Assembly: GCA_000227505.4 (NCBI GenBank)
Contig: AGIF02000001.1
Coordinates: 268,035 to 332,034, forward strand
Length of the DNA: 64,000 bases
From: a gamma proteobacterium HIMB55
GTDB taxonomy: Bacteria > Pseudomonadota > Gammaproteobacteria > Pseudomonadales > Halieaceae
Reading direction: 5' to 3'
In this document: positions 34,060-35,220 of the stretch, one piece after another
Position numbering within the stretch: position 1 is the first letter of the stretch
How the letters are laid out: each line of letters opens with the position of its first letter
The notes under the pieces: model-generated
What the model was told of the DNA's origin: nothing
Databases searched by the model: none
What the model saw: only the letters and a program-made list of their open reading frames with translations
Translations under genes and position numbers: made by a program

Positions 34060-35220
34060 TTACTCAGAAGTGGCACTGACCGCTTTGATTTCCACCTGCA
34101 CGTCCATTGCATCCAAAGTGGCTCTCACGTCATACGCAATCCAGGCAACCCAGAGGACAGCAGCGGCTGAAACCCAAACTGCGGGGAAAAATACAAACGC
34201 GAGTACCCAAAGCGCGATAAAAAATGGCCAGCGCTTGAACGCTTTTGCAAAGCGTTTTGGTGTTGATTCTGCCCCCGGAGAGTAGGCGAAGGACTTCACA
34301 CCCAAGAACCATGCATTCGCGACAAGCGCCGCGATAAATACAAGTTTTGGTGGCGGCGGCGCATCGATTTCTGGGTTCTCGTCGAGTGGTGCGTGTACGC
34401 CCTGGCTTCTCTTAGTAAGCGCGTGCTCAATGGCGTTCCAAACGTGCATCGGCGTGGGTCTTGCCACAGTGCCATTGAGATTTTTCTCAGACGGCACGGA
34501 TCGCCAGCGGTAGAGAATCTCACTCGATTGATTAACCACCAGCACACCGGGCTGAAAAAATCCTTTCGGATGTTCGACCTTCCAGTTTGCACCGCGCTGC
34601 AGAAACTCGGTTTTTCCGCGGCTGGCGTAGAGGGTCAGCCAATCTCGCTCGTTACAAACGCGCGGGATTTCCTGGTGCGGGTCTCCGATGTTTTTAAAAT
34701 TAAGATCCCAGTGGGTATGTGCCTGATCCGCAAGATATTGTGGCTCACTGGTTATGGCAAAGACCTCACCACCTGCCGCACGAATCTTGTCGACCACACC
34801 GTCGTCAATATAGCTCCGCAACTCGGAGCGACAGGGCGGTCACCAAAACCCTCGGTAAAACAGTAGGACGACGAACGCGTGCTGGGCAATTGCGGCGTCA
34901 AGCCAAGGTAAGCGGGCACCCGGAGGTGGGTCGAGCTCAGCCTGCGGCTTGCCTTCTACTGCTGGCTGGCCATTCACAATCTCAATCGACCAAGGGCTGC
35001 TCGCACCGCTAATCCGAAACGAGTGCTGTTCACAGCGATCGCCACCACACAAAATGAGCTTTAAATCACCGGATTGATCGAGAGTGCTATCGGCGTCGAT
35101 GATGCCCGTTGCGCTAAACGTATCACCCGCAGCAAGGTCTGAATCATTGAAAAACGCCACCGCTGCATCAACACGTTCGCTGAGTGCGGAGGGGATTATT
35201 TCACTGACTTGGTGGGGCAT
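34060..35220 (-). CDS. SelL-type peroxiredoxin-like selenoprotein (in-frame UGA decoded as selenocysteine, UxxC)
   Basis: Read as one gene of 386 residues with an in-frame TGA at 34842-34840 (residue 127). Before it the chain reads VVLLFYRGFW; after it PPCRSEL, without frame change. This gives W-U-P-P-C-R-S-E-L, the redox motif of the AhpC/TSA-fold SelL family, in which U-x-x-C is the active site. The thioredoxin-fold part continues (GGEVFAITSEP, WDLNFKNIGDPHQEIPR, GVLVVNQSSEILYRW). The C-terminus adds two or three membrane segments (LVFIAALVANAWFLG, PFFIALWVLAFVFF). Immediately 3' of the UGA the mRNA can fold a hairpin with arms GCUCC/GGAGC whose loop begins about 18 bases from the UGA, where a bacterial SECIS is expected. 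A thiol-dependent redox role at the membrane is inferred. SelA, SelB and tRNA-Sec must be encoded elsewhere. Confidence 0.85.
34812..34830 (-). promoter_or_regulatory. Putative bacterial SECIS hairpin
   Basis: On the minus strand, GCTCC (34829-34825), loop GAGTTGC (34824-34818), GGAGC (34817-34813). The loop begins with G and lies 18 bases 3' of the start of the in-frame TGA. Flanking GTC and GAC could extend the stem across a bulge. Position and a G at the start of the apical loop agree with SelB-binding SECIS elements. Confidence 0.65.

Follow-up and report, generated by a model that had tools for sequence, protein, structure and literature searches.

A reading frame interrupted by a single UGA codon

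The window analyzed here, a stretch of 64,000 nucleotides from the gammaproteobacterium HIMB55, contains on its minus strand a frame of 386 codons plus stop (34060..35220) whose sole interruption is a TGA at 34842-34840. The list of open reading frames gives it as two entries, 35220-34840 (126 aa, ending at the TGA) and 34821-34060 (253 aa, starting at a TTG), both in the same minus-strand frame. The initial annotation had taken them for one gene that looks like two truncated ones, and this description proved accurate: conventional translation with table 11 yields two fragments of 126 and 253 aa, and translation with TGA read as U yields one continuous protein, corresponding in extent to its full-length relatives, with U127 inside the motif FYRGFW-U-PPC-RSEL. 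The UGA (34840..34842, minus strand), which we presume to be read as selenocysteine (Sec), had further been assigned to the first redox residue of this motif. In line with this, codon 127 is TGA in all nine full-length copies from the genus, each with one in-frame TGA, and in all 55 other loci whose alignment spans the site cysteine stands opposite the UGA, a figure to which the search itself contributed in part, FYRGFWCP having been one of the patterns used. Purifying selection acts on the part of the gene that follows the UGA (dN/dS of 0.07, 0.10 and 0.13 in the three of five genus pairs in which dS was computable), and constraint was found on both halves of the gene.

Domain architecture of the predicted protein

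Three parts can be distinguished in the recoded protein. Residues 1-100 (34921..35220, minus strand) make up an N-terminal domain with Cys58 and Cys63 in a CX4C arrangement. This pair, overlooked in the initial annotation, is invariant in 47 of 47 family rows, and a CX8C spacing is common to all five Cys rows and seven Sec rows. No Pfam family matched residues 1-126 at an E-value of 1. The second part, residues 101-275 (34396..34920, minus strand), is a thioredoxin-fold domain of the AhpC/BCP-like kind that carries the U127-P-P-C130 motif. PF00578 scores 34.2 bits on the window protein (gathering score 26), and all 14 members have a match to it with an E-value of 0.01 or better. A sequence search returned no solved structure at an E-value of 0.01; by structure comparison of residues ~101-274, the closest solved folds are the peroxidases AhpC, BCP and PrxQ.

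The third part, residues 320-372 (34105..34263, minus strand), is a predicted hydrophobic helical hairpin that likely serves as a membrane anchor. The structure prediction that includes it has a pLDDT of 89, and in the block covering residues 321-370, within the predicted helices 320-344 and 347-372, the value is 94 or higher. C-terminal membrane segments had been proposed from the sequence of this gene, and the helices are supported; the tail is not peculiar to the window copy, since 46 of 47 family rows are hydrophobic there.

A SECIS-like hairpin downstream of the UGA

A SECIS-like hairpin lies at 34813..34829 on the minus strand, with a 6-bp stem (34829-34824 paired with 34818-34813) and the loop AGUUG (34823-34819). 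The stem starts 13 bases past the U of the UGA, and the spacing from UGA to loop is 16 nt. In the bacterial SECIS model given in the legend to Fig. 2 of PMC13188914, the loop has 3-9 nt, the stem 4-16 bp, a G is found in the first two loop bases, the spacing is 16-37 nt and the minimum free energy is at most -7.5 kcal/mol. The window gene falls within each of these ranges, with a loop of 5 that begins with AG, a stem of 6, a spacing of 16 and -12.1 kcal/mol over 33 nt, so that the earlier proposal of a hairpin about 13 bases past the UGA, with its loop at the bacterial SECIS distance, agrees with the published model.

Note that such hairpins are common by chance and are weak evidence alone: 288 of the 2421 TGA triplets of the window pass the fold test. 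The case rests on conservation and covariation. The nine genus genes fold at -9.0 to -12.1 kcal/mol with z-scores between -1.25 and -3.45, and for one of them, L064, 24 of 200 shuffles reach an equal or better fold. The 6-bp stem is able to form in all nine; in an automatic fold of the 45 nt after the UGA, L070 fails the model, and L065 and L066 pass it via a different hairpin. Among 45 Sec genes the loop is AGUUG in 31 and AGUUA in 14 (AGUUR), and the spacing is alike in every one.

When these 45 genes (41 distinct) are compared with shuffled controls, the stem is better paired and covaries more: 99.6% of its positions pair, versus 90.8% in shuffles, with 24 double-change cells versus 7.0 and a covariation of 0.333 versus 0.145, none of these values being reached in 500 shuffles, and a single mismatch is found in 246 stem cells. 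The shuffles ignore the relatedness of the genes; when the partner strand was slid along instead, which keeps relatedness, the covariation score did not exceed 0.087. Two of the five covariation measures were not above the shuffles, the pairs changing on both sides (335 of 500) and the further pair types (237 of 500), because just two of the six pairs vary on both sides, and in the nine genus copies alone covariation was not significant (120 of 500). The codon for Arg135 is CGN in 45 of 45 genes, and its third base (CGG, CGC or CGA) tracks the second base of codon 132 such that the two can always pair, with at least six changes of this pair on the tree. Codons 130-136 are also the peak of synonymous conservation, ranking first of 363 codon windows in eight genus genes, first of 380 in 42 Sec genes and likewise first in 33 phylum genes alone, three gene sets that overlap. 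In five Cys genes, which offer few pairs, this stretch is not the peak. Over 33 nt, folding energies lie between -0.3 and -7.8 kcal/mol in six Cys genes, as against -12.1 and -9.5 kcal/mol in two Sec genes; in these six Cys forms the hairpin is either weak or no longer present.

Selenocysteine machinery in the host and its genus

The host genome, a single contig of 2.74 Mb, encodes the complete pathway, with every component above its curated cut-off. The genes selA (C1:1500227-1501588, 580 bits), selB (starting at 1501600, 388.6 bits summed) and selC for tRNA-Sec (1503638-1503727, 72.5 bits) are clustered, and selD lies elsewhere (983776-984717, 406 bits). That the host must make selenocysteine had been deduced from the gene itself, and finding selA, selB and selC together, along with selD, bears this out. 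A pseudogene had been reckoned with should selB and tRNA-Sec be absent, or should relatives lack Cys or Sec at the position; both genes were found, and the relatives carry Cys or Sec. A rhodanese-type gene adjoins selD (L107:7558-9886, from the same genome). We take it to be selU, and the host therefore probably also makes selenouridine in tRNA.

In the genus, selA is present in 24 of 57 genomes, and full-length copies of the gene occur in nine of these 24 but in none of the 33 selA-negative genomes (Fisher p 1.5e-4). Sec-containing formate dehydrogenase was considered as another selenoprotein of the host and rejected, as none of the 57 genus genomes exceeded the cut-off of the family model among the matches listed. 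With 24 selA genomes, nine carriers and no such match, the other 15 genomes presumably use selenocysteine in something else.

Distribution of relatives

A protein search of 97 genomes, the host's included, gave 12 that match: nine with full-length copies, one with a remnant and two with weak Cys-type matches. All nine full-length copies belong to one genus, and when 140 genomes of the family were searched with a profile, the same nine came back. The remnant, a decayed C-terminal part with stops (L105:8090-8281), belongs to a selA-positive member of the genus, G054. In a scan of one genome per species we found six further long relatives with CPPC, from Myxococcota, Verrucomicrobiales, Saprospiraceae and Lewinella, one of which (L014) has a broken frame and was omitted from alignments A2 and A4. 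Of their six hosts only the Myxococcota one, G541, has selA over the cut-off; G545 gave three weak sub-threshold matches.

Profile searches of larger groups, in which at most about five first-look candidates were scored per genome, returned two of 369 genomes in the class (the host itself and one with a short CPWC protein) and one of 396 in the order of G543, namely G543 itself. The phylum of G541 gave 46 matches in 35 of 377 genomes. We read 37 of these, leaving out nine shorter ones, and 36 of the 37, from 30 genomes, have TGA in the same motif; the 37th is the Cys gene already known. The Sec form is thus the main form in this phylum, and it was probably missed by the first scan because the pattern required a Cys codon. 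As many genomes are incomplete and few candidates were scored in each, absences are soft. Alignment A4 excludes L135 (TAG 214 codons after the UGA), L157 (cut by a contig end), L161 (partial, at a contig end) and L132 (the same gene as L009). Two or three diverged Sec copies coexist in each of five genomes from the phylum sample: G1252 (L137, L146, L147), G1198 (L126, L145), G1103 (L140, L148), G1065 (L143, L149) and G1174 (L150, L161). Such copies suggest paralogues with separate roles.

A conserved gene neighborhood was sought and rejected, since the neighbors of the window gene recur only in the closest species (L097). The other stretches, some as short as 5-6 kb, have no shared neighbor beside the gene, and their 25 largest clusters comprise only generic families and apparent antisense frames of the gene itself. 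Mobile carriage was likewise discarded: the plasmid evidence was one weak, peroxiredoxin-like match in Deinococcus (53% coverage, 28% identity), and viral contigs held no confirmed relative.

Probable horizontal transfer and replacement of selenocysteine by cysteine

In a midpoint-rooted tree of 47 proteins, eight of the genus genes share a branch with seven from the phylum sample (support 100/100), and L070, the ninth, clusters with L158, L160 and L159 (100/98, 100/99 and 100/97). These two positions suggest two acquisitions by the genus. The gene has probably entered the genus by horizontal transfer at least twice, with relatives of the Myxococcota-phylum copies as the most likely source, a direction suggested by the greater diversity in that phylum. 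Ancient duplication followed by many losses is the alternative to two acquisitions.

Cys forms occupy two positions among the Sec forms of the same tree. L009 is placed among Sec genes beside L134 (96/71), and L010-L013 stand beside the Sec gene L137 (97/89). When a tree is built of the redox domain and 16 distant Cys proteins serve as its root, both positions are again nested, although branches in this tree are long and one outgroup row falls within the ingroup. These phylogenies give good support to at least one change from Sec to Cys and make two likely. According to the available text of PMC1794560 and PMC13188914, such changes are rare and mostly concern FdhA and SelD. In L009 (5001-6167), the Cys form from the selA-positive Myxococcota genome, five of six stem pairs are kept, and RNAfold prefers another weak fold. 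Its SECIS-like sequence is likely a relic, of a kind for which remnant SECIS-like structures in such Cys genes have already been described in PMC1794560.

Mechanism and alternative explanations

Taken together, these data make us highly confident that the locus is a functional selenoprotein gene, whose predicted product would be a membrane-anchored redox enzyme with a UPPC center and a Cys-pair relay, and which probably reached the genus in at least two transfers. Selenocysteine would be inserted at residue 127 by SelB and its Sec-tRNA(Sec), with the hairpin shortly 3' of the UGA as guide. The predicted enzyme would face the cytoplasm, its UPPC center cycling between selenolate/thiol and selenenylsulfide and thereby possibly acting as reductant of a disulfide or a peroxide close to the inner membrane. 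Cys58 and Cys63 may constitute a second redox center that relays electrons to or from UPPC.

The alternative that fares best leaves the selenoprotein untouched and concerns its chemistry, which might be mainly that of a classical peroxiredoxin-type peroxidase instead of a thiol:disulfide oxidoreductase. The kinship in fold to AhpC, BCP and PrxQ speaks for it, but the classical PxxxTxxU/C motif is absent, position U-3 being Gly in every one of 47 rows, and a CXXC-like UPPC stands in its place, so that we regard a peroxidase as rather unlikely. Far less credible is a read-through of the UGA as Cys or Trp outside the Sec pathway. The cysteine that homologs carry at this position would suit it; the genome, however, has the complete Sec machinery, within the genus the gene occurs in selA-positive genomes only, and the hairpin is conserved in TGA forms and decayed in Cys forms. 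A pseudogene, or two truncated genes separated by an ordinary stop, might be suggested by the two frames of the standard translation, the 48 of 57 genus genomes without a full-length copy and the decayed remnant in G054, but we give it, like a sequencing error, hardly any credence in view of the same TGA in 45 genes, the covarying hairpin and the low dN/dS after the UGA in the three computed pairs.

For the selenoprotein reading in its wider form, we lean towards a so far unnamed family of membrane-tethered two-center selenoproteins, most frequent here in the Myxococcota-phylum sample. With a portable SECIS, it would have reached a gammaproteobacterial genus, probably on two occasions, and turned Cys-based at least once, probably twice, in one case on entering Bacteroidota/Verrucomicrobiota hosts without selA at the cut-off. 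What emerges is a multi-domain selenoprotein family with good support, whose genes would probably be cut into two by standard gene calling, and in which nature offers Sec and Cys versions of the same enzyme, with decay of the hairpin accompanying the exchange of Sec for Cys. The findings suggest that selenoprotein genes can cross between phyla together with their SECIS, and testable claims on the use of Sec in this host follow from the predicted membrane tether and from the second pair of cysteines.

Relation to known selenoproteins and peroxiredoxins

The initial annotation as a selenoprotein gene with a SECIS-like hairpin, a Sec-making host and C-terminal hydrophobic helices stands, except for its designation as SelL-type. 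SelL proteins have a UxxU motif with two Sec residues, and the window protein has UPPC with a single Sec and one UGA. The SelL-related model NF040769 gives it 18.9 bits against a cut-off of 120, and by this score membership is rejected. The similarity is distant, extending over residues 113-241 around FYRG-W-[CU]-P-x-C, and 12 of 14 members match the model at an E-value of 0.01 or better (best 9.3e-6). From AhpC, BCP and PrxQ the family differs by the lack of the PxxxTxxC motif and by its additional N- and C-terminal parts.

Domain and motif place the gene in the published class of Prx-like UxxC selenoproteins, its activity being a prediction. This class, predicted in bacteria and found in marine data, is given as Prx-like thiol:disulfide oxidoreductase or 'Prx-like' in Table 1 of PMC13188914 and Table 2 of PMC2398784, and shares with our protein the PF00578 domain family and the UxxC motif. 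Here, in distinction, the PF00578 domain is preceded by an N-terminal domain with a Cys pair and followed by a hydrophobic hairpin at the C terminus, an architecture that we did not find named in the available accounts of PMC13188914 and PMC2398784. The accessible portions of PMC12013277 and PMC2874816 gave no match to the membrane-tailed family, and neither UPPC nor a Myxococcota selenoprotein was found among the literature matches listed, although the family may still be published. Section 9 of PMC2398784 describes, from the Global Ocean Sampling, Prx-like 2 and Prx-like 3 selenoproteins with a UxxC domain fused to an unknown Cys-bearing domain, as is the case here; going by this text description, they are possibly an earlier sight of the membrane-tailed family.
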